A stretch of DNA of 50,304 nucleotides from Candidatus Zixiibacteriota bacterium (GCA_026397505.1 JAPLUR010000042.1:1-50304), one strand, 5' to 3'. Counted from the first letter of the stretch, positions 6,618 through 22,338 are shown. Notes: generated by a model not told the origin, from the sequence alone. A program made the numbers and translations.

Positions 6618-7704
6618 GAAAAATACCTCCAAAATGTTGATAGTTGTTTATGGCCGCAAAGGTTGTCTTCCGCGACCTATTATCCAGTATCTGCCCGGTC
6701 TGGTTGTCAGAACCGTTCAGCGACTTTTCTTGTATATTGTTGTCATTAATAATCTTAGTTTGACGCTCGCGAATACGCTCCGGCATCCGGCAGACCTGAA
6801 TCTTATTATTGAAAATCTGACCAATATATATCAGACCATTGCCGTCAACCGCCAGCCAGGTGGGATGATAAAACCATCCCGGACTGACTCCTTTGCCCCC
6901 AAACTCACCCAGGAATTGGCCATCGCCGGTATAGCAGGATACGTTGTAGCGATGTTTATCAAGAACCAGAACCGTCCTATCGGGAGCGACGGCCACCGCC
7001 ACGGGGAAATTCAATTCGCCCGCCTGAGTGCCAAAATAACCGATCTCCCGAATCTTATTCCCCTCCAGATCCAGACAATAGACCGTCCCGATGGAACTGA
7101 CCGGAAGGTAAATGGTGTCGCTGCTGATCGCCATAGCTCCATAAGAAACGTCGCGCAGAAGATTCCCTGTCAGGTCGGAAGTCGCCGGGAATTCCTTATC
7201 TATCAGGCCATTATCTGAAAATCTCAGAATTCGCTTGCCACGCCCATCAGTTACATATAGTCTCTGCCGGCTGTCAAAAGCAATCGCCCCTATTTTGGCA
7301 TTGGCGATTAAGGAATCGGAGGTGAACTGGCGTAAAAAAATGCCATTATAGTCATACTCAAATATGCCCTGTCCCGAGTTGTTTGTCCCCAGCACAAAAA
7401 CATGACCGGCGGAGTCGACCGCTATATCTGTCGGCGCCCCACACTGTTCTGATGTTGAAAACTCGAATTTATACAGCCCATCCTGATTCATTATCACAAT
7501 TCTGTCATTACCGGCGTCCGCCAAATAGATTTCGCTGACTCTATTATCCGCCAATATCCTGGACGGACGCAAAAAGTGATTTACTGCCCCCGGAAGCTTC
7601 AACTCGCGAACAAGGTCGGCCGGGACCGAAATCAATTCCTGCGATGAAAGATAGGACGGAGTGAAAATGCCAAATATCATCAGAAAATATGCAATTATGA
7701 CCAT
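6610..7704 (-). CDS. Secreted NHL-repeat beta-propeller protein
   Basis: I choose the ATG at 7704 (MVIIAYFLMIFGIF), which opens directly with a signal peptide ending near YLSSQE. A longer in-frame start at 7869 would translate through three operator palindromes, giving spurious CENVH/CENFH repeats. The 364-residue product carries about six NHL blades, for example IYLADAGNDRIVIMNQDG, HVFVLGTNNSGQGIFEYDYNG, LYVTDGRGKRILRFSDNG, VLVLDKHRYNVSCYTGDGQFLGEFG and IYIGQIFNNKIQV. The family makes periplasmic or surface propellers for protein-protein contact. The stop overlaps the start of the OmcS-like cytochrome, so the two are coupled. NHL proteins are, as I recall, regular neighbours of nanowire cytochromes. 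The ribosome-binding site is weak (GGA only), so the exact start is uncertain. Confidence 0.82.
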   Translation of the reverse strand: MVIIAYFLMIFGIFTPSYLSSQELISVPADLVRELKLPGAVNHFLRPSRILADNRVSEIYLADAGNDRIVIMNQDGLYKFEFSTSEQCGAPTDIAVDSAGHVFVLGTNNSGQGIFEYDYNGIFLRQFTSDSLIANAKIGAIAFDSRQRLYVTDGRGKRILRFSDNGLIDKEFPATSDLTGNLLRDVSYGAMAISSDTIYLPVSSIGTVYCLDLEGNKIREIGYFGTQAGELNFPVAVAVAPDRTVLVLDKHRYNVSCYTGDGQFLGEFGGKGVSPGWFYHPTWLAVDGNGLIYIGQIFNNKIQVCRMPERIRERQTKIINDNNIQEKSLNGSDNQTGQILDNRSRKTTFAAINNYQHFGGIFHA

Positions 7705-7742
7705 TCCGAAACATCGACGCCCACGAGAGAACAGGGTACCCG

Positions 7743-7836
7743 TGTGAAAATTTTCACAAGAATTGATACGCGATGAAGGCAAGTGAACATTTTCACAAAC
7801 TTCCGTGTGCGAAAAAAGCGCGTGAACTATTTCACA
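7743..7836. promoter_or_regulatory. Three CRP/FNR-type operators spaced exactly 39 bp apart
   Basis: Three 16-bp sites of the form NGTGA-N6-TCACA lie at 7743-7758 (TGTGAAAATTTTCACA, a full palindrome), 7782-7797 and 7821-7836. Centres are 7750.5, 7789.5 and 7828.5, that is 46, 85 and 124 bp before the NHL start codon. TGTGA-N6-TCACA is the CRP consensus, also close to sites of other CRP/FNR-family regulators such as HcpR. The spacer sequences of the first two units are also partly alike (GCGA then AAGC or GAAGGC), so the array may be a decayed 39-bp tandem repeat. A fourth site of this kind lies before hdrC. No regulator gene is visible in the window. Confidence 0.75.
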
Positions 7837-8400
7837 AGTATTCATATTCAAAGCTAATTCCGTTATCACTCATCTATTCTACGCAAGTAATCAGGACAGT
7901 AAAGGTATTTTCTCTCATGTTTTGCTCCAAATCTAATATAAAACAGGAGAATGTCAAGTGAATTTATCCTGATTTCATGCATTTTTTTTGAAGCCCCATA
8001 TGTTTGGGGGAATTATAACATTAACAATGGGTTAGAGAACATTATCATTTATAGGTTTCGTGTCAATGGCACTAATTTATTCGCGAATCTAAATAATGCC
8101 AGACTTTATTACTCATGATTGGCAATTCAATTGTGGGCAAAAATGGTCGAAATTGTTGTTATTTAATATGATAGCCTGAATGTCATGGAATCCTGATTAT
8201 ATTCCTCGCCCGGCTGGCAAATTATAAGGAAAATGATACCACCCTGAATCAGGATCGGGGTATGGATAGCATGGCAAAAAACATCATCCCCATGCAGAAT
8301 TGTCCAATTATTCAGCTTCGTTTGCCCCCAATGGCATAATTTGCTCTCTATTCCAATATAGCCCGGCTGAGTTCCACGGTACCCCGAAATGCCTGCAATG
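7837..8400. other. Intergenic stretch without a recognised gene
   Basis: This stretch lies between the operator array and the terminator of the Tricorn-like gene. It is AT-rich around 7925-8170, with a T8 run near 7982. I see no convincing coding sequence. An open frame of 82 codons on the minus strand (8163-8411) runs into the terminator hairpin, lacks a ribosome-binding site and shows no recognisable motif. Nothing else was recognised. Confidence 0.5.
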
Positions 8401-8481: not shown

Positions 8482-11400
8482 TTACCTTGGCGTCGGCGGG
8501 GCCGGACGCGGCGGCAATTTTCTGGGCTCTTCCTTGATCTTTTTCTGCAAATATTCAATAGCCCTATCCAACTGGTCATCATGCCCTTGTATTAGGCGTC
8601 CGGGAAGATTATCCACCTCCATATCCGGCTGAACGCCAACATTTTCCATCACCCACTCGCCCTTCATATTGTAAATCGTCCCCTCCGGCACCGTGAAATA
8701 CCCACCATCGAGGAGCGGCGGAAATCCCCCGATGCCGACTACACCGCCCCAGGTGCGCTTCCCCAGAAGTGGGCCAAGTTTGTTTTCGCGGAAGAAATAG
8801 GAGAAATAATCGCCGTCGGAACAGGAAAATTCATTACACATGGTGATCATATGGGCATTAAGACCGGTGGGCACCACCACCGTATCCCGGCCGACTCCCA
8901 TCGCCTGCACCGGCTGCCTAAGTCTCTGCATGATAAGATCGGAGACAAAACCGCCACCGTTATATCTGACATCAATAATCAACCCCTCTTTGCGGGTCTG
9001 ATGATAGAACATTTTCATGAAGCGGACCAGGCCATAACTACCCATATCCGGTATCTGAATATAACCGATTTTACCCCCTGAAACCATATCGACATACTGC
9101 CGATTCTTATCTACCCAGTTATAGTACCGCAGAGCTTCCTCGGAGGCAATCGGTTTGACTGTCACCTCGCGTGAACTCTCCATAGAAGGTCGGCTATTGA
9201 TTGTCAAGGTGACAGTTTTGCCCACTGTATTGACCGTGAGCAGATATGGGTCAATCTCACCGGTCACCTGATGCCCGTCAATGGCCAAAAGATAGTCGCC
9301 CGGTTTAACTTCTATGCCGGGTTCGGTCAAAGGCGAACGAAGTTCATTGTCCCAGTTCTCACCCTTGAGAATTTTCGCAATCCGAATTCGATTGCTTGCC
9401 TTATCAAGTTCAAAATCAGCCCCCAGAAGGCCGGTATTGCTGGGATTGATAGGGGGCATATCACCGCCCCCAACATAAGTATGAGAACAGCAGAGTTCGC
9501 CAAGCATCTCGCCCAATATATAGGTGAAATCGAACCGGTTGATAACATAGGGGAGAAGGACTTCATATTTATCATGAATCTTCTTCCAGTTGACCCCATG
9601 CATATTGGGATCGTAGAAGAAATCTCTCTCCATCCGCCAGGTTTCATCGTACATCTGACGGTACTCGACCATATGATCCACCAGCATTTCCATCCGGGAT
9701 AGATCCAGCCGGTTATCCTCAAGTTCGGCCTTCTTGCCACCCGTTTCGGCTATGAAATAATCATTCCCCTTCTTAAGGAGAGTCTTTTTTCCGTCCGGGA
9801 CCAGAGCATAGTCGGTGACACCGCCGGCAAATTCATAATCTTTTCTGTCTTCAAGGATATATTTGTGCAGAACCTCATCCTCTTTGCCGACTTTTCCCAT
9901 CAGTCCGCGCATCGGTCGGCTGATATAGAAAACCGCACCCTGCATAGCGGCGAGACCGTAATATTCGCCTGCCGGGAGATCAAAGGCTACCTCGCGGTCA
10001 TATATGCCGTCAAAATCGATTTTAACGTCGACCGGCTTCTTCTCTTCTCCTTTGCCTTCTTTTTCTCCCCCCTTGGCGCTGTCGGCTTTCCCTTCTTTCT
10101 TATCCATTACAGTGACTTCATCACTCTTCGGCGCAAAGGGAGAGGGGCCGGTCGCAGAAAGGACAATCAGATAGAGATTCGTAATGGCATTGTTAACCGA
10201 CGAGAATTCATAGGTGCTTAAGATCGGGTTGAAATTTCTTTCCGAAAGAAAATAGAGATATTTGCCGTCGGGATCGAAAGCGGGCGAATAATCATCGGTG
10301 TATCCGGGGGTCACCTGATGTATCGAGCCGTCGGCGAAAGAATAAATATATATCGCTCTGATATCGTTCTGACCTGCTTTAACATAAGCCAGATACTTGC
10401 TGTCCGGCGACCATGAGAAGCCGCGCACATCGCTCCGTGGCGAGAAATCTATCTTGGCCTGCTTCTTGGTGGCGATATCGATGTAGTACACATTCTTATC
10501 TCTATCCGAAAAAACCAGCTTCTTGCTGTCGGGCGACCATTGTGGTTCGAACTTACGGCAGTGACCGTCGGTGGTCAGCCGAATTTTCTCTTTGCCGTCC
10601 TGCGACACCAGATAGAGTTCCTCCTCGCCGGTGCTGTCGGAATTAAAGGCGAGCCACTTGCCGTCGGGCGACCAGCGCGGGACAACCTCCTTGGAGCCGG
10701 TCAGATTGGTCAGGTTACGCGTGTTACCTTCCTTGGCCGGCACGGTGAATATATCGCCGCGCCCCGAGAAAACTGCCCGTTTACCGTCTGGGGAGATATC
10801 GAAATCATATAACCGGTCAAAGGCTTTCACTATCTCGGGACGAACCGTATGCCGGTCGGTGATCAGACTGACCGCAACTTTGCTCACCTGTTCCGAAGGC
10901 AGTTCCAGTAGATAAACATATCCGGCATTTTCAAAAGCGATGGCATCGGCGCCAAGACTCGGCCAGCGAACATCAAAGTCGGTAAAATTGGTCACCTGAT
11001 GAATCTGCCTGGTTTTGGTGTCATAACAGAAAAGATTGAGCGTCCCGGCGCTGTCCGGTTTTGAGGTGCGATCGGAGTTGAAATAAATTTTATCGCCGTA
11101 CCACATCGGAATATTGTCGGTGCCGACCCAGTCGGTGATTTTCTCAGAACTGAAATCTTTCAGGTCGAATATCCAGACATCCTGCGCCATGCCCCCTTTG
11201 TATCGTTTCCAGGTGCGAAAATCGCGGGAAATAGGGCAATAGGCGACCTTCTTGCCATCCGGCGAAAAACTGGTAAATCCCGCCGAAACCATCGGCAACG
11301 GCTCGGATAGCCCACCCTTTACATCCACCAGATAGGCCCGCCCCTCCCACCAACTCATCGCTTCCTTGCGCGAGCGATAAAGAACTTTCTTGCCGTCGTT

Positions 11401-11793
11401 AGACCACCCCAGCGTCATATTCTCCGGGCCAAACCGCTCGGCCGTATGCGCAATACCGGGGTGAAAAGTCAGTTGTTTCGGCTCGCCGCCGACAGTCGGC
11501 ATGACATAAATCGACATCTCGCCGTCGTATTGCCCGCTGAATGCAATCATGCTGCCGTCAGGGGAGAAGCGCGGGAACAGCTCCAATCCCTCGTGGCTGG
11601 TCAAGCGCGCCGCCTGCCCGCCGGCACGCGGGGCGGTGTAGATATCGCCGCCATAAGAGAAAACGATCTTGTCTTTGGAGACATTCGGGAAACGCAGCAG
11701 CCGCGCCTCACCCGAATTTGCCGCCGGCTGGGCTGGGGCAACATTGCTCAATAGGAATAAACCGAGCAACGCCGTTAGCATCAGTTTTTTCAT
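8482..11793 (-). CDS. Tricorn-like S41 family protease with TolB/PD40 propellers and a PDZ domain
   Basis: The 1103-residue protein has a signal peptide (MKKLMLTALLGLFLLSNVAPAQ) and GGAG 5 nt before the ATG. Residues about 30-330 and 330-560 hold repeated PD40 blades (FSPDGSMIAFSG, WSPDGKWLAFNSDS, WSPDSKKLVFSD), forming two propellers. A charged Lys/Glu-rich linker follows near 575-600. A PDZ domain (about 790-875) and an S41 protease domain complete it. Tricorn catalytic signatures are present: Ser-His in CCSHTYVGG near 769-770, Ser-Asp in FSCSDGD near 990, and Glu in MENVGVQPD. Tricorn trims peptides into di- to tetrapeptides. The signal peptide places this one outside the cytoplasm, unlike archaeal Tricorn. 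It is a single-gene unit with its own terminator, and ends in a Pro-rich tail. Confidence 0.9.
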   Translation of the reverse strand: MKKLMLTALLGLFLLSNVAPAQPAANSGEARLLRFPNVSKDKIVFSYGGDIYTAPRAGGQAARLTSHEGLELFPRFSPDGSMIAFSGQYDGEMSIYVMPTVGGEPKQLTFHPGIAHTAERFGPENMTLGWSNDGKKVLYRSRKEAMSWWEGRAYLVDVKGGLSEPLPMVSAGFTSFSPDGKKVAYCPISRDFRTWKRYKGGMAQDVWIFDLKDFSSEKITDWVGTDNIPMWYGDKIYFNSDRTSKPDSAGTLNLFCYDTKTRQIHQVTNFTDFDVRWPSLGADAIAFENAGYVYLLELPSEQVSKVAVSLITDRHTVRPEIVKAFDRLYDFDISPDGKRAVFSGRGDIFTVPAKEGNTRNLTNLTGSKEVVPRWSPDGKWLAFNSDSTGEEELYLVSQDGKEKIRLTTDGHCRKFEPQWSPDSKKLVFSDRDKNVYYIDIATKKQAKIDFSPRSDVRGFSWSPDSKYLAYVKAGQNDIRAIYIYSFADGSIHQVTPGYTDDYSPAFDPDGKYLYFLSERNFNPILSTYEFSSVNNAITNLYLIVLSATGPSPFAPKSDEVTVMDKKEGKADSAKGGEKEGKGEEKKPVDVKIDFDGIYDREVAFDLPAGEYYGLAAMQGAVFYISRPMRGLMGKVGKEDEVLHKYILEDRKDYEFAGGVTDYALVPDGKKTLLKKGNDYFIAETGGKKAELEDNRLDLSRMEMLVDHMVEYRQMYDETWRMERDFFYDPNMHGVNWKKIHDKYEVLLPYVINRFDFTYILGEMLGELCCSHTYVGGGDMPPINPSNTGLLGADFELDKASNRIRIAKILKGENWDNELRSPLTEPGIEVKPGDYLLAIDGHQVTGEIDPYLLTVNTVGKTVTLTINSRPSMESSREVTVKPIASEEALRYYNWVDKNRQYVDMVSGGKIGYIQIPDMGSYGLVRFMKMFYHQTRKEGLIIDVRYNGGGFVSDLIMQRLRQPVQAMGVGRDTVVVPTGLNAHMITMCNEFSCSDGDYFSYFFRENKLGPLLGKRTWGGVVGIGGFPPLLDGGYFTVPEGTIYNMKGEWVMENVGVQPDMEVDNLPGRLIQGHDDQLDRAIEYLQKKIKEEPRKLPPRPAPPTPR

Positions 11794-12664: not shown

Positions 12665-13708
12665 TTATCTGTTTATATTTGGTTTAACTTCCAGCGCCGT
12701 CTTATAAAGGCATAGCGGAAACGAAGCTTTGATATCGCCGGTATGGGCCAGCGTCGCCCCCCGGCAGGCTCCGCGGCAGTTAGTAAAATTGTCGCATGAC
12801 CCGCACTCCCCGTGAATCTCCTCCCGTGGAACAATCGACATTGCCCGCATCTCCGGCAAATTCCATATCTCTTCCAGCGGGCGCTGGCGGAGATTGCCGA
12901 CTTTAAACCTTTTATCCATCAGAGCCGTACAAGGATATATATCGCCGTTGCCTTTCAGGTAGAACGTCTCCACCCCTGCGATGCATTTATGAAATCCGTA
13001 TTCGGGCGGACACGGGCCGAAACTGACATCAAAGGACGTCACAAGTGAATTATTAGCCTGCGCCTCTTCGACAAAGCGAAGCAGACCCGCCAGCTCATCG
13101 GTCAGATTCAGTCGCTCATTGACATTACCGTGCTTCCCTCTTCCGACCGGCGCAAATCCGCAGAATCGGATCGTATCCACCCCTTCTCTACCGGCCAGTT
13201 TCATCATCTCGGGGATATCGCCCAGATTCTCTTTTCCAATCAAGGTCGCCAGTATCACTCTTGTGCCGAGGCCTTTGCTGATACGGATTGCCTCAATGAT
13301 TTTATGAAATTCCTCGGCGCTCGCCCCCCGCATCCGGTGGTTCATCTCCGGCGTGGAACCGTCGAGACTGATCTGAATCGCGCGAATGCCGCCCTCTATC
13401 AAACGCGCCGCCCGCGTTTGGTTTAGAAGAATGCCATTGGTGGTAATATTCGACTTGATCCCCTTCGCCCAGGCATACTCCGTCAGTTCTTCGAGGTCTT
13501 CTCTCAGAAGCGGTTCGCCGCCGGTCCAGCCGATCATCTTGACCCCGATTCCCGCCATGGCGTCGATAACCCCTTTGCATTCATCCGTATTCATCTCATC
13601 ATGCGGTCGTCGGGCGGCGGCGCTGTAACAATGAGGGCAGGAAAGATTACATTGATTGGTTATCTCCCAGCCGACAATTTCCGGTATTCGTTCCGATTGA
13701 TCTGTCAT
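12665..13708 (-). CDS. Radical SAM/SPASM enzyme, second maturase of the RiPP locus
   Basis: The 347-residue enzyme carries the radical SAM cluster motif CNLSCPHC at Cys20, 24 and 27, a GGEPLLR motif near 64-70, and an ISLDGSTPEMNHRMRG segment typical of PqqE/NirJ/AlbA-like enzymes. A C-terminal SPASM domain (about 240-340) supplies cysteines for auxiliary [4Fe-4S] clusters: CIAG, PCTAL, ECGSCDNFTNCRGACRG, then LCLYK. It starts 37 bp after the first radical SAM gene and shares its strand, so it is probably co-transcribed. The family forms thioether or carbon-carbon links in peptides, or acts on heme precursors (NirJ/AhbC). The adjacent peptide genes favour peptide modification. It lacks the N-terminal extension of its neighbour. 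A weak T-rich hairpin follows at about 12620-12636. Confidence 0.85.
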   Translation of the reverse strand: MTDQSERIPEIVGWEITNQCNLSCPHCYSAAARRPHDEMNTDECKGVIDAMAGIGVKMIGWTGGEPLLREDLEELTEYAWAKGIKSNITTNGILLNQTRAARLIEGGIRAIQISLDGSTPEMNHRMRGASAEEFHKIIEAIRISKGLGTRVILATLIGKENLGDIPEMMKLAGREGVDTIRFCGFAPVGRGKHGNVNERLNLTDELAGLLRFVEEAQANNSLVTSFDVSFGPCPPEYGFHKCIAGVETFYLKGNGDIYPCTALMDKRFKVGNLRQRPLEEIWNLPEMRAMSIVPREEIHGECGSCDNFTNCRGACRGATLAHTGDIKASFPLCLYKTALEVKPNINR

Positions 13709-13745: not shown

Positions 13746-15077
13746 TCATTCCGCGGCCGCCTGTCTTGCGGCGCCGGAATGGGCAAGTGCAAGCATCTCC
13801 TTGAAGTTGTATTTCCAAGATGAACATACTCCGTGAGGTACTTCAGGATTCTGTATGCTCCGCATCGGGCAGCCCCCCATGCAGACAGGGAAGATTTTGC
13901 ATTCCCGGCATTCCGCCAATTTAAACGGATCCCAGGCCGTGTAAGTCTCCAGATTTTTCCTCTGCATATCGTCGGGAGTCAGTGCCGTGAGATGACCGAT
14001 TGACTTGGCCGGATCAAGCGCCAGATCCTCCCAGCAACGGAACAGATGCCCGGTCGGAGAAACGACAAAATGCCCTTCGCATATCGCCCCGCAGGTGGCG
14101 CCGGTCATTACGTGAGGATAATCAACCTGTCTCATGCCCATGTCAAACAGCCTCTGGTATATCAATACCAGAGTTTCCGAAAACTCCTTGTCGTCATAAC
14201 ATCTGTCACGAATATTGGAGCAGGCGGCTCCCGATGATGTCACTTGCGCGAAGTAGACCTTAATCTTGGGAAGAATCCCGCGCTGCTGCAGCTGCTCCGC
14301 AACCTCGCAGGCCGAATCGACATTTTCTTTATCCACATTTATGCGCACGTTTATGTTAAGAATGTCGGCCGTCACCGAAAGGTTGTCGATAATCCTGTTG
14401 AATGTTCCCCGGCCGTTACGGAGCTTGCGGCGGCTGTCGTGCACCGCCGCAGGGCCATCGATCGTTATCTGGGCCTGGGCAATGCTCAAATCCTTGAGAC
14501 GCCGCGCCATTGCCTCATCCAGCAGATAGCCGTTGGTGATAATCGCGCCGGGCATAATATTGACACGATGCTTTTCGGCCAGTTCCAACAGCTTGCTCTG
14601 AAGCCGCTCGAGAATAGAAAAGCAGAGAGTCGGTTCACCGCCGAACCAGCAGATACGCAGCGCCGCGGCTCGAGTCAGATAGCGATCGGTGAATTTCAGG
14701 AGTGCATCTTGTGTATCTTCGGCCATCCGGACATTCGAGTGCGATTCAAAGCAGTAATCACAATCGAAATTGCAGGCGAGCGTCGGCGCGATAGTAAGTG
14801 TCAAAGTATTACCCTCAAGCCGGGTGGAGCGCGCCCTGGTTTTCAATGCCGCCGTCTGGTCGACAGCGTCGGCAATCAGGAATCCACCGTCCTTTAAACA
14901 ATGCATAAACTCTCTATCCTGCTCTGTCTCGGCTCCGTCGGGATGAGCCAGCAGATGCTGCACGCGGGGATAGTGTTGTTTCTCGATCTCGGCCATGGCG
15001 CCGGTATAGCTGTTGAAAGCCAGAATCATGCTGCCGTCTTTGGCATCGAAGAAATGGTTGTAAGGTGATGGTTTCAT
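13746..15077 (-). CDS. Radical SAM/SPASM peptide maturase with N-terminal leader-binding-like region
   Basis: The 443-residue enzyme begins with a region of about 95 residues of the type often seen in RiPP radical SAM enzymes (SPYNHFFDAKDGSMILAFNS, then YTGAMAEIEK), a candidate leader-recognition part. The radical SAM motif CNFDCDYC has its cysteines at 102, 106 and 109, followed by WFGGEPTLCF. ITIDGPAAVHDSRR lies mid-barrel. The SPASM part (about 310-425) has CGAIC, RCWEDL, CRECKIFPVCMGGCPMRS and GVCSSWKY. Enzymes of this build make sactionine, ranthionine or other cross-links using S-adenosylmethionine and two auxiliary Fe-S clusters. It lies 104 bp after precursor peptide 1, separated by a 14-bp hairpin. 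The family call is firm; the reaction on these peptides is unknown. Confidence 0.88.
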   Translation of the reverse strand: MKPSPYNHFFDAKDGSMILAFNSYTGAMAEIEKQHYPRVQHLLAHPDGAETEQDREFMHCLKDGGFLIADAVDQTAALKTRARSTRLEGNTLTLTIAPTLACNFDCDYCFESHSNVRMAEDTQDALLKFTDRYLTRAAALRICWFGGEPTLCFSILERLQSKLLELAEKHRVNIMPGAIITNGYLLDEAMARRLKDLSIAQAQITIDGPAAVHDSRRKLRNGRGTFNRIIDNLSVTADILNINVRINVDKENVDSACEVAEQLQQRGILPKIKVYFAQVTSSGAACSNIRDRCYDDKEFSETLVLIYQRLFDMGMRQVDYPHVMTGATCGAICEGHFVVSPTGHLFRCWEDLALDPAKSIGHLTALTPDDMQRKNLETYTAWDPFKLAECRECKIFPVCMGGCPMRSIQNPEVPHGVCSSWKYNFKEMLALAHSGAARQAAAE

Positions 15078-15133
15078 GTTTGTCTTTCGGCGATGTGGCC
15101 TGTCATTGTTACAAAATCATCTTTTCTGTCGGC

Positions 15134-15164
15134 CGTGCGCCGGTGATTTTATCACCGGCGCACG
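15134..15164 (-). terminator. Strong hairpin between precursor peptide 1 and the radical SAM genes
   Basis: A perfect 14-bp stem (CGTGCGCCGGTGAT at 15134-15147 with its complement at 15151-15164) and a 3-nt loop sit 17 bp after the peptide 1 stop. No U-run follows on the minus strand. It is therefore more likely a partial terminator or a 3-prime RNA stabiliser than a full stop. Such an element would allow peptide messages to exceed enzyme messages. Confidence 0.55.
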
Positions 15165-15181
15165 AAAAAACTGCCTGATTA

Positions 15182-15286
15182 TTACGGTTTATACTTGCGG
15201 CAGACCGGCGGCTCATTAATCATGCAAATGATGTAGTAAGGAGACTGCGGATTAATCTGGAGCTGTGGGAAATTAATTAGTTTCAC
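15182..15286 (-). CDS. Putative RiPP precursor peptide 1 (34 aa)
   Basis: A GTG start at 15286 follows an ideal AAGGAGGTGA ribosome-binding site with a 7-nt spacer, and two TAA stops end the frame. The peptide begins MKLINFPQLQINPQS and ends CMINEPPVCRKYKP. The N-terminal block MKL(I/V)-x-(F/L)-x-Q-(L/M)-(Q/E)-I is shared with the two other small genes upstream, and the C-terminal 14 residues match peptide 3 at 13 positions. Two cysteines (21 and 29) are seven residues apart. In the aligned 14 codons, peptides 1 and 3 differ by four silent changes and one amino-acid change, which indicates selection on the peptide. It is the copy nearest to the radical SAM genes. The product class is not known. 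Confidence 0.8.
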   Translation of the reverse strand: MKLINFPQLQINPQSPYYIICMINEPPVCRKYKP

Positions 15287-15429
15287 TATTTCACCTCCTT
15301 TCGGTTCCATGTGAGGGTCTCTTATTCCATTACATGCTTACGCATGCTCTAAGAAAGGATCTTTGTTCTCAATTCGACTGTGCTGCGGCATTACTTCAAC
15401 CGATACGCGTCGCTCTGTCCCCATGACCA

Positions 15430-15528
15430 TTATTTGTAGTTCTTACATATGATAAAAAGAGGACATTTGGAAATGCAGAGATTCGGCTTGCCCACAATTT
15501 CCATCTGCGGCAATGTGATTAGTTTCAC
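15430..15528 (-). CDS. Putative RiPP precursor peptide 2 (32 aa), divergent core
   Basis: A GTG start at 15528 is preceded by GAGGAGGTGGAAGA, the same ribosome-binding layout as its two neighbours. The leader MKLITLPQMEIVGKPN aligns with theirs, but the core differs: CISKCPLFIICKNYK has three cysteines (18, 22 and 28), lacks the NEPPVC block, and keeps only the terminal (K/N)YK. The leader-conserved, core-variable pattern is what RiPP precursor families show. No strong hairpin follows it. It could be a second substrate of the same enzymes. No database family was recognised. Confidence 0.75.
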   Translation of the reverse strand: MKLITLPQMEIVGKPNLCISKCPLFIICKNYK

Positions 15529-15623
15529 TCTTCCACCTCCTCTTCGCCTTAGGGGGTAACTTCAATCTTCATAACTCTAGAATTGCCCAAGCTGCGCTCG
15601 TTGAGTCTTGCATAACGGCAAGC

Positions 15624-15655
15624 AATGCGCCGACAAGAATTCCTGCCGGCGCATT
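15624..15655 (-). terminator. Hairpin following precursor peptide 3
   Basis: A 9-bp stem (AATGCGCCG at 15624-15632 with CGGCGCATT at 15647-15655) with a 14-nt, partly pairing loop starts 17 bp after the peptide 3 stop on the minus strand. It has no U-run. Its arm resembles that of the hairpin after peptide 1 (TGCGCCGG), and the distance from the stop is the same. This suggests that gene plus hairpin was duplicated as a unit. Confidence 0.5.
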
Positions 15656-15672
15656 CACTTTTTGCCAAGAAA

Positions 15673-15792
15673 TTACGGTTTGTACTTACGGCAAACCGGC
15701 GGCTCGTTATTCATGCAAACGATGGGGAAAGGCCCGATAATGGGTAACGGCCTATTGGCGATTTCAAGCTGTGACAATACGACTAGCTTCAC
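15673..15792 (-). CDS. Putative RiPP precursor peptide 3 (39 aa)
   Basis: A GTG start at 15792 follows AAGGAGGTGGAATA. The leader is MKLVVLSQLEIANRP, the middle contains PLPIIGPFPIV, and the end is CMNNEPPVCRKYKP, nearly identical to peptide 1, with the same Cys-x7-Cys spacing (26 and 34). It is the first of the three small genes in transcription order and lies farthest from the enzymes. The Pro-rich middle segment is absent from the other two. Its role as modified peptide precursor is inferred from the repeated family, the ribosome-binding sites and the adjacent radical SAM/SPASM genes. Confidence 0.8.
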   Translation of the reverse strand: MKLVVLSQLEIANRPLPIIGPFPIVCMNNEPPVCRKYKP

Positions 15793-16188: not shown

Positions 16189-17649
16189 CTACTTCGCAAC
16201 CCGTGTCAGCCACTGTCGGGCCAGCGCCGCGACCCGACCAGCATTGGGCGGGTCATAATTCCCCACTACGACCACCGTGTAACCAGTCGAAAAATCCGCC
16301 TCCAGAGCCGCATTAATTCCCGGGGCGCCGCCGGCCACCCCGATTCCTCGCGGCGGAACGATGCCGGCCGGCCCAGATGCTGCTGGCTTTGCCGTTCCGG
16401 GGCGCTCATCGGTGAGAAGCCATTCGGCATAGGCGGGCGAAAGGAGAATGTTCTCTTGCAGGGCAATGGTGAATTTGAGCAGATCTTCGGCCGTGGAATA
16501 ACCGCCGCCCGCGGCGCTTCCTCGGGCCGGACGTGAGTAAATATTTTTCCGCCGGGGCGCCTCTTTTTCACCCTCCGGACGAGTATATCCTTCGGCCAGG
16601 TTGGCCACCGGCATATCCGCCTCATAGGAATCGCTGTTGGTCATCCCGGCCGGCCGATAGATATTGTCCCGTATGTAGTCATAGTACTCCTGTCCCGATG
16701 CCGCCTCAATGATAGCGCCGAGCAAAATATACCCGCCGTTGGAGTACTGGTTTCGACTTCCCGGTTCAAAAGCCAGGGGAAGACTGTCGAACATCGGCAG
16801 AAAATCATTGTTCGTGCGGAAACGATCCTTGGGAGTGTTGTCGTACTTTTCCCCGAAAAAATCGCCGATTCCGGCCGTCATATTGAGCAAATGATCGACC
16901 GTTACTTTACTTCGCGCCTCAGGATTGGGATAATCGGGAAGAAACCTCCCCAGCGTATCCTCAAACTTTATTTTCCCCTTCTGAATCAATTGCCCGATAG
17001 CTACTTTGGTAAATAGCTTATTGATCGAACCCAGATTGAACTTCGTATCTATGCGATTGGGCACCCCGAATTCCTTGTTAGCCAGCCCATATGCCTTCTG
17101 GAAAATCGGTACATTCTTCTTCGCGACCAGCACCACTCCCGAAAACTCATCATTCTGCGCCATTTTGTCCAGACGATTACCCAGCGAATCAAGAAACTCC
17201 TGTTCGGCCATAGGTGTTGCCGGCTGATCGACAATTGTCGGATCGGCCTCTTCAATCCTTATGCCGAGCAATTTAAATGGCGGCAAAGCCTCAAATTGGA
17301 ACGAAAACGTAAACCAGGTTTTGTCTCCGCTTTCCACCAATATGGTCGCCGTGGCACTATCCGCTCTGACCACACGGTCCGGCCGCAGTTGACCAAAATC
17401 CCTTTGCATATTGCGATACATTTCCAGCCGTTGCTCCATTGTTCTCTGCTTCAGCGATTGTTCGGCAATGCATTCGAGGATGAATCCTTTCATCGCCCCT
17501 TCACCGCCGTTAAAGGCCTCAAAATAGTCGGCAACGCATTTGCCGCCGGGGATGTTAGGTGGGTCAAACGCCATTCCGCTCGAAATGCCGATAGTCCCAA
17601 TGGCCGCCAGAACCAGAAATATTATCCGGGAATTAACTCTGGAAAACAT
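16189..17649 (-). CDS. Secreted penicillin-binding-like serine hydrolase (beta-lactamase class C fold)
   Basis: GGAGG lies 4-5 nt before the ATG. The 486-residue protein has a signal peptide (about 8-27). An N-terminal region (about 35-140) resembles the accessory domain often fused to such hydrolases, and the catalytic domain follows. The SxxK motif is Ser208-Ile-Asn-Lys211, and the YxN motif is Tyr302-Ser-Asn304. A Gly-rich GVAGGAPG near the end stands where the third motif (KTG/HxG) is expected. The family hydrolyses or transfers peptides and esters, including D-amino-acid peptides. It lies upstream of the RiPP locus on the same strand, but hairpins and a gap of about 400 bp separate them, so a shared role is unproven. 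Confidence 0.88.
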   Translation of the reverse strand: MFSRVNSRIIFLVLAAIGTIGISSGMAFDPPNIPGGKCVADYFEAFNGGEGAMKGFILECIAEQSLKQRTMEQRLEMYRNMQRDFGQLRPDRVVRADSATATILVESGDKTWFTFSFQFEALPPFKLLGIRIEEADPTIVDQPATPMAEQEFLDSLGNRLDKMAQNDEFSGVVLVAKKNVPIFQKAYGLANKEFGVPNRIDTKFNLGSINKLFTKVAIGQLIQKGKIKFEDTLGRFLPDYPNPEARSKVTVDHLLNMTAGIGDFFGEKYDNTPKDRFRTNNDFLPMFDSLPLAFEPGSRNQYSNGGYILLGAIIEAASGQEYYDYIRDNIYRPAGMTNSDSYEADMPVANLAEGYTRPEGEKEAPRRKNIYSRPARGSAAGGGYSTAEDLLKFTIALQENILLSPAYAEWLLTDERPGTAKPAASGPAGIVPPRGIGVAGGAPGINAALEADFSTGYTVVVVGNYDPPNAGRVAALARQWLTRVAK

Positions 17650-17874: not shown

Positions 17875-18555
17875 TTACAGTTTCTTTCCGGCGACCAATT
17901 CCTTGAGCCATTCATACCAGGACTCAAGCCCGGCTCCGGTACGGCAAGACGTTTCGAATATCTTCAGATTGCCGTTTATCTGAAGCGCATTCTTCTTCAC
18001 CCGCTCGATATCGAAATCAGAAAGCCCCAGCAAATCAATCTTGTTTATTACCATCGCCGAGGCCCGGCGAAACATCGCCGGATATTTGAGCGGTTTGTCG
18101 TCCCCCTCGGTCGTACTTATCAGCGCCACCTTCATATCCTCACCCAAATCATAGCTGGAGGGGCAAACCAGATTTCCCACATTCTCGATAAAGAGTATTT
18201 CAATCCGGTCGATATCCATTTCATCCAGTACACGAGTGATCATCCGCGCATCGAGGTGGCAGGCGCCGCCAGTGACAATCGGCCGCACCGCCTTGCCGCC
18301 CGCTTTAATGAGACGGTTGGCATCGTTCTCCGTCTGCACGTCACCGGCAATCAGCGCCATATTGATTTCATCGCTAAGAGAACCCAGCGTCCGCTCCAGA
18401 AGCGAAGTTTTGCCGGAGCCGGGGGAACTGACCAAATTGAGCGAGACAATCCGCCTAGCCGCCAGTTTCTTCCTTATCTCCGCCGCCAGACGGTCGTTCT
18501 CGGAAAGAACTTTTTCCTCAATATTAATTTTCTTCGTCATCTTACTTTCCGTCAT
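17875..18555 (-). CDS. hypB: HypB, GTPase for nickel insertion into [NiFe]-hydrogenase
   Basis: The 226-residue GTPase has the Walker A loop SSPGSGKTSLLE near 43-54. The metal-binding G-domain segment is TGGACHLDARM with FIENVGNLVCPSSYDLGE, and NKIDLLGLSDFD gives guanine specificity. HypB hydrolyses GTP to drive Ni(II) delivery with HypA. It lacks a His-rich N-terminal nickel-storage tail. A second in-frame ATG five codons in (MTKKINIEEKV) is a possible start. It ends the operon, 35 bp after hypA. HypC, D, E and F, needed for the Fe(CN)2CO part, are not in the window and must lie elsewhere. Confidence 0.95.
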   Translation of the reverse strand: MTESKMTKKINIEEKVLSENDRLAAEIRKKLAARRIVSLNLVSSPGSGKTSLLERTLGSLSDEINMALIAGDVQTENDANRLIKAGGKAVRPIVTGGACHLDARMITRVLDEMDIDRIEILFIENVGNLVCPSSYDLGEDMKVALISTTEGDDKPLKYPAMFRRASAMVINKIDLLGLSDFDIERVKKNALQINGNLKIFETSCRTGAGLESWYEWLKELVAGKKL

Positions 18556-18590
18556 TTATCCGAGCCGAACCCAACCTGCATCCCCAGAAT

Positions 18591-18932
18591 CTACTCCGTC
18601 TCCAAGTAGGCAATATCCAACTCCTCACCCTGCGTCACCTCAATATCACCCGAAAAGCAATGCGGGCAAACAAAAACAAATTCTGCAACCTCAAAATCCT
18701 CTTTGCAGGCCCGGCAGATTCCCTTGACCGGCACCTCCTCAATCACCAGTTTTGCGCCGGAGAGTTTCGTATCGACTGTAATCGCCTGAAAGCCGAATTC
18801 CAGTGCATCCGGATTCACCCCCGAGAGCGCGCCGACCCGCAATCCAATCGCCGAAATAGCCGCCAGATTTCGATTATCCATCTCCTTCAGTGCAATATTC
18901 ATCACCGATTCGGCAATCCGCAGTTCATGCAT
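18591..18932 (-). CDS. hypA: HypA, nickel metallochaperone
   Basis: The 113-residue protein starts MHELRIAES, whose N-terminal Met-His-Glu binds nickel. It carries the structural zinc site as two CxxC pairs, CRAC near 73-76 and CPHC near 89-92. The length is the family norm. HypA takes nickel and, with HypB, passes it to the hydrogenase large subunit. It begins 7 nt after the maturation protease stop within the Hdr-Mvh operon, so the cofactor machinery is made together with the enzyme. Confidence 0.95.
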   Translation of the reverse strand: MHELRIAESVMNIALKEMDNRNLAAISAIGLRVGALSGVNPDALEFGFQAITVDTKLSGAKLVIEEVPVKGICRACKEDFEVAEFVFVCPHCFSGDIEVTQGEELDIAYLETE

Positions 18933-18939
18933 GACGGGT

Positions 18940-19398
18940 CTAATCTTTCCAGATTTCCAGTTGCTGTTTGACTTTCTGCACCAGTTCTTTTATACCTTGC
19001 TCGGCCTTTTCGCTCAGGCCGCCTCCTACAGTATACGGGTCAACCACTTCCAGCGCAAAAATTTTTATTTTCCAGGGAAATTCCAACTGCAACTCGCGGG
19101 CCAGAGCCAGCATTTCCGGGAGGCCGGCATAGTGAGGGGAGGGGGCGAACACTTCACCCAGGTCCTCGGGACTCAGATCGAGAATTGTCCCCGCCGGATG
19201 TTTCCCCGTCTTGATGGCATCCAGAACAATGGCGCGCTCATACCCGACAAATAAATCAAGAAGGGCCAGGCCGGAGAGGGAGCTTTCCACGATCTCGGCC
19301 TGACCCTTTATTTCATCTCTGAGCGCCCGTGCCGCCAGTATACCGACTGCATCATCGGCCAGCAGCTCGTTACCCAAACCCAGCACGAGCGTTTTCAT
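18940..19398 (-). CDS. [NiFe]-hydrogenase maturation protease (HyaD/HycI family)
   Basis: The 152-residue endopeptidase opens MKTLVLGLGNELLADDAVG, the family signature, with Glu at the first nickel-sensing position. The other ligands are expected in AIVLDAIKTG (Asp) and SPHYAGLPE (His). The enzyme removes the C-terminal tail of the large subunit once nickel is in place. It lies 5 nt after mvhA, whose product has such a tail of 26 residues. The partner assignment is therefore secure by position. Some naming schemes would call it FrcD or HoxW-like; I leave the symbol open. Confidence 0.9.
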   Translation of the reverse strand: MKTLVLGLGNELLADDAVGILAARALRDEIKGQAEIVESSLSGLALLDLFVGYERAIVLDAIKTGKHPAGTILDLSPEDLGEVFAPSPHYAGLPEMLALARELQLEFPWKIKIFALEVVDPYTVGGGLSEKAEQGIKELVQKVKQQLEIWKD

Positions 19399-19403
19399 AT
19401 CAG

Positions 19404-20867
19404 CTAATCGCGGCGAATCTCTTTGACCAGCTCATGCTGTGCATCATAAACCCTTACGATTAAAGGGGTCTGCCCCGGCAAGGCGTGCGTGGCGCATCCG
19501 TGACAGGGGTCATAGGCCCGGAAACCCATCTCGACCATATTGAGCAGGCCGTCGTTCACCTGGCCGCCTTTGATCAGGCCGCGCGCCGCCTTGTCGACCG
19601 ACATGGCTATCCTGGCGGCATTGTTTTGCGTCGCCACGATCAGGTTGGCCATGGTGATAACACCTTTCTCGTTGGTCTGGTAGTGATGGAACAACGTTCC
19701 GCGCGGCGCCTCGACCACACCGATACCCTCTTTGGGAATCTCTTTTGGTATGGTGCGAACATTGGGGCTGACAATTTCGGGATCCTTGGCCAGTTCCACC
19801 GACCGTTCGGCCGCATAGAGCAATTCAATCAGACGCGCCCAGTGGTTGGCCAGCGTGTGATGCACCGGTTTGCCGCCGAGTGTCTTGTAAAACAACTCGT
19901 AAGCCGCCTGCGCTTTGGGAGTGGCCATACCGTCGGCGGCATTCAGCCGCGCCAGCGGAGCGACCGCATATACGCCGCTATCGGGGCCGTCCTCAAAACC
20001 TTTCCAGCCGACATCCTTTAAATAGCAGAACTTGATATAGCTCCATGGTTCAACATGCTCGGCGACATGCTTGAGATAATCCTGTGCCTTGAATTTCAGG
20101 AACTCTTTGCCGTCCGGCTTGACTACCCGCAGAAGGCCGTCATAGAAATTGACCTTATTGTTGGCATCTACCTGACCCATGTAGTATGTCTTGTGCGTGT
20201 ACATATCGGAGAGGATATAATCGACATACTGCTTATTCTTCAGAACGATGTCATTGAACACGCTAAGAGAGAATTCTGCGAACTTGACCGCATGTTCCGC
20301 GCCGGCAATAAACTTCTGCTGATCGTCCTTGTTTATCGGCTTGGCAATTCCGCCCGGCAATCCAAAAACCGGATGGATTACCTTCCCGGCCGCCAGGATA
20401 ATCAACTCCCGAATTTGCTTGCGCAATCCGATGACTTCCTTGCCGATATCCAAGCCGACTTTCCCCAAAACACCGAGAATATTCCTCTCCGCTTTGGGTG
20501 CGGTTGGACCGACAACAAAATCGGGGCCGCCCAAGAAGAAGAAATGAAGAGCATGATCTTCGACATAGAAAAGGCTGTAAACCAACTCTCTGATCTTCTT
20601 GGCCGCCGACGGCGGATCAACCTTGTACAGGTCATCCAGCGCTTTGGTGGCGGCCATATGATGCGCCGTGGGGCAGACCCCGCAGATACGTGATGTAATC
20701 TGCGGCATATCCTCTGCCGGACGTCCTTCGGCAAACTTCTCGAATCCGCGCAGTTCCGGTATCTGAAGGTAGGCGCGCTCGACATCCCCTTTATCATTCA
20801 GGAAAATGTCAATCTTTCCGTGCCCTTCAAGTCTGGTGATAGGATCTATAAGTATTTCACGAGCCAT
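19404..20867 (-). CDS. mvhA: MvhA, large subunit of group 3-type [NiFe]-hydrogenase
   Basis: The start at 20867 (MAREILIDPITRLEGHGKI) has GGAGG 9 nt upstream; a GTG two codons earlier is less likely. The 487-residue subunit holds the Ni-Fe site: RICGVC (Cys62, Cys65) near the N-terminus and DPCHGCATH (Cys455, Cys458) near the C-terminus. After His461 a 26-residue tail remains, the substrate of the adjacent protease. In Hdr-Mvh complexes this subunit oxidises H2 and feeds electrons to the flavin bifurcation site in HdrA through MvhG and MvhD. No signal peptide is present, so it is cytoplasmic. It starts 2 nt after mvhG. Group 3c is the likely class from gene context. Confidence 0.93.
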   Translation of the reverse strand: MAREILIDPITRLEGHGKIDIFLNDKGDVERAYLQIPELRGFEKFAEGRPAEDMPQITSRICGVCPTAHHMAATKALDDLYKVDPPSAAKKIRELVYSLFYVEDHALHFFFLGGPDFVVGPTAPKAERNILGVLGKVGLDIGKEVIGLRKQIRELIILAAGKVIHPVFGLPGGIAKPINKDDQQKFIAGAEHAVKFAEFSLSVFNDIVLKNKQYVDYILSDMYTHKTYYMGQVDANNKVNFYDGLLRVVKPDGKEFLKFKAQDYLKHVAEHVEPWSYIKFCYLKDVGWKGFEDGPDSGVYAVAPLARLNAADGMATPKAQAAYELFYKTLGGKPVHHTLANHWARLIELLYAAERSVELAKDPEIVSPNVRTIPKEIPKEGIGVVEAPRGTLFHHYQTNEKGVITMANLIVATQNNAARIAMSVDKAARGLIKGGQVNDGLLNMVEMGFRAYDPCHGCATHALPGQTPLIVRVYDAQHELVKEIRRD

Positions 20868-20869
20868 TA

Positions 20870-21853
20870 TCACTTACCTCCTTCTTTCGCCGGCTGGTAA
20901 GTCCGATGCAGCAGCGAGGCCGGCAGGCTGTAGCGGAAAAATGTCCCGCCGGGATCGGCGATTTTGTCCAAAATGGCCGCAATCTCCGCTTCATCGTTGG
21001 AACCGACCAGCGAGGCGATGGACGAGAGTGCTTTGGCGCCGTAGTCGATCACATGGCTGGTCGGGCCAAGGCATCCGGTGCAGGGCATATTGCCGTTGAT
21101 ACAAACCGAACCGCAACCGCTGCGGGTCACCGCACCAAGGCAGAGAAGCCCCTGCGCCAGAAGGCACTTATCGGTCTCGATCAAAATCTCATGCGGCCGC
21201 TTGAACTCCTTAATAGCCAGTTTCTCCGGCTTGGACTCTTTGCGCGGGCAATCCTGACAGAGAGCCTTATCGGGCGCCAGCACCGTACCTTTCGCGGGAA
21301 GTTTCCCCTCAAGTATCGCGCCCAGCGCCTTATTGATTAAATCGACCGGCGGCGGACACCCGGGTAAATAGTAATCGACATCAACCACCTGATCGAGCGT
21401 CTTGACCGTCTTCCAGAGCGAGGGGAGAGTGAGCGTACCCTCTTTCACTTTAAATGATTCCTGAGGCAGCGTCTTCTCCGGATTAACCGTGCTGGGCGTC
21501 TGACTATAAGAATTTTCAAGAATCGCTTCTTTGGTCGTAAAATTGGCCAGGCCGGGAATGCCGCCCATATGAGAACAGCTTCCAAAGGCGATCAGAACGC
21601 CGGCCTTCTTGCGAAGAAGCTTGGCCATTTCGCCCTGCTCCGAAGAGCGGACAGCGCCATTGACAAAGCAGACCGCCATCTCTTTGTCCTGCATCTTTTC
21701 AACATCTTCTTTCTTGAAATCGAGCGCCACCGGCCAGAAGACGATATCCACCGCATCAACCACTTTCAGAATATCCTCATTGAGATCGACTATGGCTTCT
21801 TCGCATCCGCCGCAGGCGGCGCACCAGTAAAACCCGACTTTAGGTTTGCTCAT
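20870..21853 (-). CDS. mvhG: MvhG, small Fe-S subunit of the hydrogenase
   Basis: The 327-residue subunit starts MSKPKVGFYWCAACGGCEEAI, with cysteines of the proximal [4Fe-4S] cluster, and continues with GSCSHMGGIPG and LPGCPPPVD as in small subunits of group 3 enzymes. More cysteines follow (LCQDCPRKES; CLLAQGLLCLGAVTRSGCGS; MPCTGCLGP) for further clusters. No Tat signal is present, in line with a cytoplasmic enzyme. It overlaps mvhD by 4 nt and is followed after 2 nt by mvhA. It carries electrons between the Ni-Fe site and MvhD. Confidence 0.93.
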   Translation of the reverse strand: MSKPKVGFYWCAACGGCEEAIVDLNEDILKVVDAVDIVFWPVALDFKKEDVEKMQDKEMAVCFVNGAVRSSEQGEMAKLLRKKAGVLIAFGSCSHMGGIPGLANFTTKEAILENSYSQTPSTVNPEKTLPQESFKVKEGTLTLPSLWKTVKTLDQVVDVDYYLPGCPPPVDLINKALGAILEGKLPAKGTVLAPDKALCQDCPRKESKPEKLAIKEFKRPHEILIETDKCLLAQGLLCLGAVTRSGCGSVCINGNMPCTGCLGPTSHVIDYGAKALSSIASLVGSNDEAEIAAILDKIADPGGTFFRYSLPASLLHRTYQPAKEGGK

Positions 21854-22338
21854 ACCGGCGCTCCTTGCCGGGCCGCCCCGGCGCCATGGGCCGCCATGGC
21901 GGCTGCTTTCGGCTCAAGGTGAAGCGGGCCCAGTTTCCGGATATGCTCCGTCATCTCATTCATCACTTTCTGAACCCGATCTCCCTCGGAGGCGGCGATC
22001 CACTCCATGCGGACTCGCTCCGGCTCGATACCCATTTCGTCCAAAAGCCGTTTCAACAGAGTGAAACGACGCAGGGCCTTGTAATTCCCCTCCTGATAGT
22101 GGCAGTCGCCCGGATGACAGCCGCCGATAAGAACGCCATCGGCGCCCTCACGAAGGGCCGTCAGGATGAACTGCGGATCCAGTCTTCCCGAACACATGAT
22201 CCGTATTACCCGGGCATTGGGGGCATAAACCATTCGTGCCGTTCCGGCCAGGTCGGCGGCCGTGTAAGTGCACCAGTTGCAGAAAAAGGCAATTATCCGG
22301 GGCTCCCACGGCTTATTGGTATTCAATTTATCAGACAT
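21850..22338 (-). CDS. mvhD: MvhD, [2Fe-2S] linker subunit between hydrogenase and HdrA
   Basis: The 162-residue protein has the MvhD/FlpD signature: IIAFFCNWCTYTAADLAG, then IRIMCSGRLDPQFILTALREGADGVLIGGCHPGDCHYQEGN written here in two parts for its conserved cysteines, then RRFTLLKRLLDEMGI. The five cysteines bind a [2Fe-2S] cluster that hands electrons from MvhAG to HdrA. An Ala/Gly-rich tail ends the chain. It overlaps hdrA by 8 nt and mvhG by 4 nt, showing translational coupling. Confidence 0.93.
   Translation of the reverse strand: MSDKLNTNKPWEPRIIAFFCNWCTYTAADLAGTARMVYAPNARVIRIMCSGRLDPQFILTALREGADGVLIGGCHPGDCHYQEGNYKALRRFTLLKRLLDEMGIEPERVRMEWIAASEGDRVQKVMNEMTEHIRKLGPLHLEPKAAAMAAHGAGAARQGAPV

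Follow-up and report, generated by a model that had tools for sequence, protein, structure and literature searches.

Three very small genes stand ahead of two genes for radical SAM/SPASM enzymes in a 50,304-nucleotide stretch of DNA from a Candidatus Zixiibacteriota bacterium (the whole stretch is called the window below). Do the small genes encode substrates of the enzymes in a RiPP pathway, and, if so, is that pathway of a known kind? A sequence-only reading of the window had proposed three GTG-started mini-genes of 39, 32 and 34 codons, each behind a ribosome site and followed by two SPASM radical SAM genes. All of these are found, on the minus strand, the second enzyme gene lying outside the interval which that reading delimited.

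Precursor genes and enzymes of the window

Peptide 1 (15673–15792, minus strand; 39 codons, GTG start; MKLVVLSQLEIANRPLPIIGPFPIVCMNNEPPVCRKYKP) has the leader MKLVVLSQLEIANRP and a core composed of a PFPIVC box and a second unit, EPPVC. Peptide 2 (15430–15528, minus strand; 32 codons, GTG start; MKLITLPQMEIVGKPNLCISKCPLFIICKNYK) is 32 aa long (CISKCPLFIICKNYK), and peptide 3 (15182–15286, minus strand; 34 codons from GTG; MKLINFPQLQINPQSPYYIICMINEPPVCRKYKP) 34 aa (PYYIICMINEPPVCRKYKP). The site AGGAGGTG is located 5–6 bases ahead of the GTG in each of the three genes; because it sits ahead of the GTG, a longer reading of peptide 3 from an in-frame ATG at 15310 is less likely. The leader consensus, a short MKL[IV]x[LF]xQ..., and the peptide endings are exactly as first described. 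Each peptide contains two to three cysteines, with no five-residue Cys spacing, and none of the three is recognised by the NCBIfam or Pfam models. Peptides 1 and 3 have a common 14-codon tail that differs by four silent changes and one replacement, over approximately 7.8 synonymous and 34.2 non-synonymous sites (Fisher p 0.003). Purifying selection on this tail, already suspected in the sequence-only reading, is therefore supported, although the sample is small.

Enzyme A (13746–15077, minus strand, 443 aa) is a putative maturase composed of an RRE (residues 1–90 in the predicted structure), a radical SAM domain with a CX3CX2C motif (C102/C106/C109) and a SPASM domain with its complete set of cysteines. 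These cluster cysteines are invariant among the 25 A homologues compared. The best curated model is the Clo7bot maturase TIGR04334, at 321.6 bits against a cut-off of 600, followed by TIGR04463 (300.7, cut-off 525), CefB (212.5, cut-off 600), FlmE/OhkG (189, cut-off 500) and the geopeptide maturase (155.9, cut-off 400); the SCIFF maturase TIGR03974 scores 68.5 (cut-off 425). The nearest NCBIfam models serve peptides carrying Cys, and on these sequence scores A is placed as a distant member of the Clo7bot/TIGR04463/CefB/geopeptide superfamily of Cys-peptide maturases.

In the AlphaFold model of A (pLDDT 89.9, pTM 0.87), residues 1–90 are predicted to fold as b-b-b-a-a-a, which is the RRE topology, and align with the RRE part of CteB; the model thus points to a leader-recognition domain. 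The closest structure is CteB (5WGG/5WHY), with a Foldseek E of 1e-18 and a Z of 27 across residues 4–437, at a low sequence identity of 18% in the alignment. TigE (8VPO) also aligns over the full length, from residue 1, with a Z of 22.8. For AnSME, SuiB and ChlB the alignment starts no earlier than about residue 83–91, and EpeE and SuiB are poorer matches, from residue 83 or later and without the RRE.

Enzyme B (12665–13708, minus strand, 347 aa), the second radical SAM/SPASM enzyme, would lack such a domain: no RRE is seen in its predicted structure (pLDDT 89.1), whose alignments begin at residue 94 with SuiB and at residue 85 with CteB, and whose first Foldseek match is PqqE (6C8V). The CX3CX2C and the complete set of SPASM cysteines are near-invariant among 21 B homologues compared. 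The best curated models—AhbD, mycofactocin MftC, StsB and NirJ2—score 169–177 bits, all below cut-off; MftC is second with 172 of 265, the sactipeptide enzyme StsB reaches 170 of 625, and PqqE 137 of 381. B thus belongs to a SPASM branch other than that of A.

Recurrence of the cassette in other genomes

We surveyed 132 whole genomes of the phylum and found A homologues at E < 1e-50 in 37 of them. The nearest A/B pairs occur in G062, G020, G037 and G018 (57–59% identity for A, 57–63% for B), and the A of G042 is 55% identical to that of the window. The sequence-only reading had called for homologous peptides with varied cores beside orthologous enzymes and would have taken the lack of homologous small genes there as a refutation; the RiPP reading withstands this check, since such peptides indeed accompany orthologous A and B in these five genomes, with a kept leader (MK[LIF]I..P) and a PxxIIC core: MKLIRLPNDLMVKRPHYIICKVNGPLKIICGVW in G037, MKIITMPGIEPILKPYLIICGVKGPLRIICGHY in G062, MKLITVTPTTLVKKPHFIICMDRH in G042 and MKFIEKPQMKKTDRPCPCYKMFFPIICSAD in G018, the fifth being the G020 peptide described below. 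Precursors with a kept leader and a varied core thus adjoin tailoring enzymes, the arrangement by which a RiPP is recognised. In G042 the peptide lies beside A, of which its contig holds only the first 43 codons before it ends; the rest of A, together with B, is on another short contig. The G018 locus (5290–9187 of L047) is a natural hybrid, where two A genes in tandem are combined with one B and a lone peptide.

The fifth precursor was found blind. In G020 the contig with A and B starts 121 bases ahead of A, so the precursor is missing there. A model built from six peptides gave a single new strong match in the 132 genomes (E 2.2e-6), the G020 peptide MKLISLPGFGTAVKPPPCIGKGPYYIICGKYKDE, located less than 100 bases from the end of contig C2; all remaining matches outside the training set had E 0.005 or worse. 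The six training peptides are recovered by construction, with E 1e-10 to 1e-16 at their own source loci (1.5e-12 for peptide 1, itself a training-set member), and G020 is the independent test. The layout of peptide 2 is closest to that of the G020 peptide (CIGKGPYYIICGKYKDE). The start of the A contig in G020 resembles the 3' end of a further peptide copy (KYNDE), and such a copy may be the cause of the assembly break.

A search with the leader pattern returned only loci already known. A scan of genome contigs with A found seven distant relatives, and none of the four examined had similar peptides. Two outlying A homologues deserve mention. A contig of an archaeal MAG (Methanothrix, JAPKYA010000031.1, L038) carries at its end an A fragment of 37% identity, which could be either a transfer or a mis-binned sequence. 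In G004 (C68, 4091–4987, L057) an A homologue disrupted by several in-frame stops is followed by near-identical repeated stretches, suggesting that the cassette was lost in this lineage.

Peptide types and enzyme clades

Five types of peptide were distinguished in the phylum, the window peptides representing type III. Type II peptides (MK.IEKP...KPCPCYxxLFLILPPW, with a divergent form, IIb) mostly lie between A and B. Type I peptides (MIYLIDP...C..C..KPLYGI) occur with another second enzyme, B2, which has 26–30% identity to B; no second enzyme is encoded near the peptides of type IV (CefA-like, MDFLIQP) or type V (MNWLVEP). Nearly all peptides of the five types begin with a hydrophobic stretch, M-x-x-[LIV]-[IVE], and each of the 66 peptides collected contains at least one Cys. 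The motif PxxI[IV]C is present in all seven pure type III peptides, with a chance per peptide of 0.002–0.016 under shuffling. The single peptide of the G018 hybrid combines the CPCY motif of type II with the IIC (PIIC) motif of type III; this locus would be well suited to show which bond each enzyme makes.

The C-terminal part of the peptide changes with the second enzyme. Of the 27 type II and III peptides, which travel with B, 25 have a box I-[ILVQY]-[CP], although this loose pattern also matches 8 of 30 type I peptides. The motif P[LCMI]YG is found in 28 of the 30 type I peptides, which travel with B2, and both motifs are missing from the nine peptides of types IV and V. The trees of both enzymes keep the peptide types apart: the type label changes six times on the A tree (minimum five) and four times on the B tree (minimum four), and none of 200 shuffles was as low in either case. 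A and B clades therefore track peptide type, but the link between box and B is confounded because B clade and peptide type may simply share ancestry. Because a change of enzyme clade goes with a change of core motif, these loci offer a natural experiment on residue choice by radical SAM enzymes, and the C-terminal box leads directly to a prediction of what a second SPASM enzyme does.

Several distinct maturase and peptide types coexist in the genome of the window, which has four further A paralogue loci of the same superfamily. A second cassette (C125, 39000–51000, L052) has an A of 45% and a B of 52% identity with the peptide MKTIQKGCDARRPCWCYQKLWIIYPVCSID between them. C69 (6000–20000, L060) has a row of about seven different precursors of the form MIYLVDP...C...KPLYGI, behind which lie a related maturase and a second radical SAM enzyme of a different kind. 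Peptides of this type I family are found again in many genomes across the phylum; the members tested match no NCBIfam peptide model. The maturase loci on C108 (L061) and C10 (L059) have no second radical SAM enzyme, and their Cys-rich peptides are of the CefA-like (MDFLIQP, GCGC) and MNWLVEP kinds.

Relation to known systems

Of the described systems, Clo7bot (TIGR04334/TIGR04333) offers several points of likeness. A aligns with its maturase model end to end (1–433 of 440), its peptides are short, Cys-bearing and often several in a row, and weak sub-threshold matches to its peptides occur beside type I maturases. By contrast, A scores far below the maturase cut-off, the present cassette includes a second radical SAM enzyme, and the Clo7bot peptide model TIGR04333 (cut-off 31 bits) has no match above cut-off in any of the 132 genomes and none at E 1 in the genome of the window. 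TIGR04463, the radical SAM/SPASM maturase of a Cys-rich peptide, and CefB, that of the Cys-every-fifth peptide CefA, are of the same superfamily, but A is below both cut-offs and the window peptides lack the five-residue spacing; CefA was rejected on cut-off and motif, and its model gave one sub-threshold match (E 0.055) among peptides of types I, IV and V. Other relatives of the window peptides likewise gave only sub-threshold, noise-level matches to family models.

The ranthipeptides of the SCIFF/CteB kind share the layout of RRE, radical SAM and SPASM domains with predicted A over its full length. SCIFF peptides, however, have six Cys in forty-five residues, and this cassette has B in addition; SCIFF was rejected on the two to three Cys of the window peptides and the low TIGR03974 score. 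Thuricin CD resembles the locus in having two radical SAM enzymes (TrnC/TrnD) and more than one short precursor (PMC12093266), but it is a two-peptide sactibiotic, whereas here no export gene is kept, and the predicted RRE is confined to A, with B from another radical SAM branch. MftC and PqqE are similar only to B, as radical SAM/SPASM enzymes without an RRE. Mycofactocin was rejected on the MftC score and the lack of an MftA-like C-terminal Val-Tyr; PQQ on the PqqE score and the lack of ExxxY (the Glu/Tyr motif) in the window peptides, and no partner genes of either were noticed. Streptide was rejected as well: the three window peptides contain no Trp, hence no Lys-Trp pair.

The sequence-only reading described the locus as an undescribed RiPP locus, a description that stands, and held that it fits no known RiPP class. 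The latter holds for the peptides, which match no NCBIfam or Pfam model, but not for A, a distant member of the known Clo7bot-like superfamily; the claim should be softened to an undescribed subfamily in that superfamily, with a second enzyme. The cassette recurs with changed peptides in distant relatives and is therefore real, and its known maturase superfamily and radical SAM RiPP logic place it within a known kind of natural-product pathway, of which it forms an undescribed branch. The literature searched, with subscription papers outside its scope, has no mention of Clo7bot, TIGR04334, TIGR04463, Cys-every-fifth or geopeptide, which is weak evidence of novelty. The cassette adds a precursor family recognised by no public model and tied to phylum-wide RRE–radical SAM maturases.

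A proposed mechanism and its alternatives

Radical SAM/SPASM folds of one shape are known to make thioethers, C–C bonds, epimers and decarboxylations. The window peptides are very probably cross-linked or otherwise reshaped by the two radical enzymes, and we are highly confident that the system is a RiPP with A as the maturase. In the model that we favour as reasonably probable, A binds the leader and makes the Cys cross-links, and B modifies the C-terminal box as a second step. Strong ribosome sites would ensure a surplus of the three paralogous precursors. A would grip the short leader through its N-terminal RRE, much as the RRE of CteB, a thioether enzyme, holds the leader in strand form (PMC8326336). 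A 5'-deoxyadenosyl radical and the SPASM auxiliary clusters of A would then link the core Cys to a carbon atom in a residue close by, which would yield a thioether of the kind seen in ranthipeptides; for this chemistry the balance tips only slightly in favour. In ranthipeptides the Cys sulfur is attached to a non-alpha carbon, in sactipeptides to the alpha carbon. The aromatic, Asp or Thr residues that serve as acceptors in other systems are not conserved in these peptides. The kept residues sit N-terminal of the Cys, which would, as a guess, make P, I and I/V of PxxI[IV]C the likelier acceptors.

B, with no RRE of its own, would act on the same peptide, either alone after A or in an A–B complex. 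Its target might be the C-terminal box I-[IVL]-[CP] common to the peptides that travel with B, an assignment that we hold only tentatively and consider rather doubtful. Proteases encoded outside the cassette would then remove the leader. More speculatively, the phylum might possess a modular class of RiPPs with two radical enzymes, where an RRE-bearing A acts on Cys and a swappable second enzyme without an RRE reads the C-terminal box (I-[IVL]-[CP] for B, P[LCM]YG for B2), and combinations such as the G018 hybrid would give new bicyclic peptides with an undescribed bond type at Ile/Pro. Taken as a whole, we regard this extension as unlikely.

A and B could instead form an obligate heterodimeric maturase that makes one kind of thioether, with B as a helper. 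The precedent is TrnC/TrnD of thuricin CD, where neither enzyme is effective alone, the two bind each other tightly, and only one of the radical activities is strictly needed (PMC12093266). Wherever a type II or III locus is complete, both A and B are present, and the RRE is predicted in A alone. The cluster-binding cysteines of B are nevertheless kept across its homologues, and the second enzyme, B or B2, changes with the C-terminal box of the peptide; therefore a substrate site of its own is suggested for the second enzyme, and we consider the obligate heterodimer unlikely.

Slightly less likely, in our estimate, is that both enzymes, or B alone, form C–C bonds or epimerise Ile, Val or aromatic residues in the manner of cyclophane enzymes, TigE or EpeE, leaving Cys for uses such as metal binding or disulfides. 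Ile-Ile is as constant as Cys in PxxI[IV]C, TigE matches A over the full length, and EpeE epimerises Val and Ile residues (PMC8326336). The units PLKIIC and PLRIIC, however, are free of the aromatics that three-residue cyclophanes need, and EpeE and SuiB match A less well, beyond the RRE only.

The pathway might also yield a small redox cofactor or signal like PQQ or mycofactocin, for which B would change a C-terminal Tyr, Trp or His and the product would be excised and used in the cell. The ranking of the mycofactocin maturase and PqqE among the matches of B, the lack of an exporter in the cassette, and the many peptides that end near such a residue (YKP, YK, VW, HY, PPW) are consistent with this. 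But B is below both cut-offs, the C-terminal residue varies across the set (SAD, MDRH, YKDE, GPK, LQD), no partner gene of mycofactocin or PQQ was seen in the neighbourhood, and the constant of the core is Cys rather than Tyr, which renders a cofactor quite improbable. Short ORFs are common, and the mechanical ORF list contains many, but to read the peptides as chance ORFs beside radical SAM genes with other substrates has a negligible probability and was rejected, given the ideal ribosome sites, the common leader, the silent-biased tail differences, the peptide model matches and the occurrence of homologues only beside orthologous enzymes, G020 included.

Cassette limits, hairpins and neighbouring genes

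Just three kinds of part make up the cassette. Among type II and III loci, the A/B pair (42–59% identity for A, 47–63% for B) and the peptide are kept together, and all other neighbours differ between loci. No conserved exporter or protease was found among the neighbours of the compared loci, and, as these vary, none can be assigned to the cassette.

Two G+C-rich hairpins without a T tract behind them lie on the minus strand of the window: a 14-bp stem after peptide 1 (15624–15655), a length reached by none of 200 shuffles, and a 15-bp stem between peptide 3 and A (15133–15165). Similar G+C-rich hairpins without a T tract occupy the gap between precursor and next gene in G037, G062, G018 and G033. 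Including those of the window, these stems measure 12–16 bp, lengths matched by zero or one of 200 shuffles, and a G042 hairpin with one mismatch was seen by eye. The type II loci of G010, G012 and the second cassette on C125 have no outstanding stem. Hairpins of this kind could fit a role in partial read-through or in mRNA protection, by which precursor would come to outnumber enzyme.

The gene just downstream of B (8482–11793, minus strand) encodes an S41 protease of the Tricorn type, in which beta-propeller and PDZ domains are present; it could trim the peptides, but is not kept in the other loci. Immediately upstream of the peptides lies a gene for a serine hydrolase of the beta-lactamase family (16189–17649, minus strand), which is not kept elsewhere. 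Farther out, a hydrogenase cluster (17875–24334, minus strand) includes a NiFe large subunit match (19404–20873), a maturation protease-like frame, HypA/HypB-like frames recognised by eye and an FAD/ferredoxin-domain protein. A multihaem cytochrome with doubled CXXCH motifs adjoins an NHL-repeat protein (5565–7869, minus strand), and in a 777-aa frame on the plus strand (40440–42773) an ABC substrate-binding domain (PF04392) is, unusually, joined to an outer-membrane efflux domain (PF02321) within one protein.
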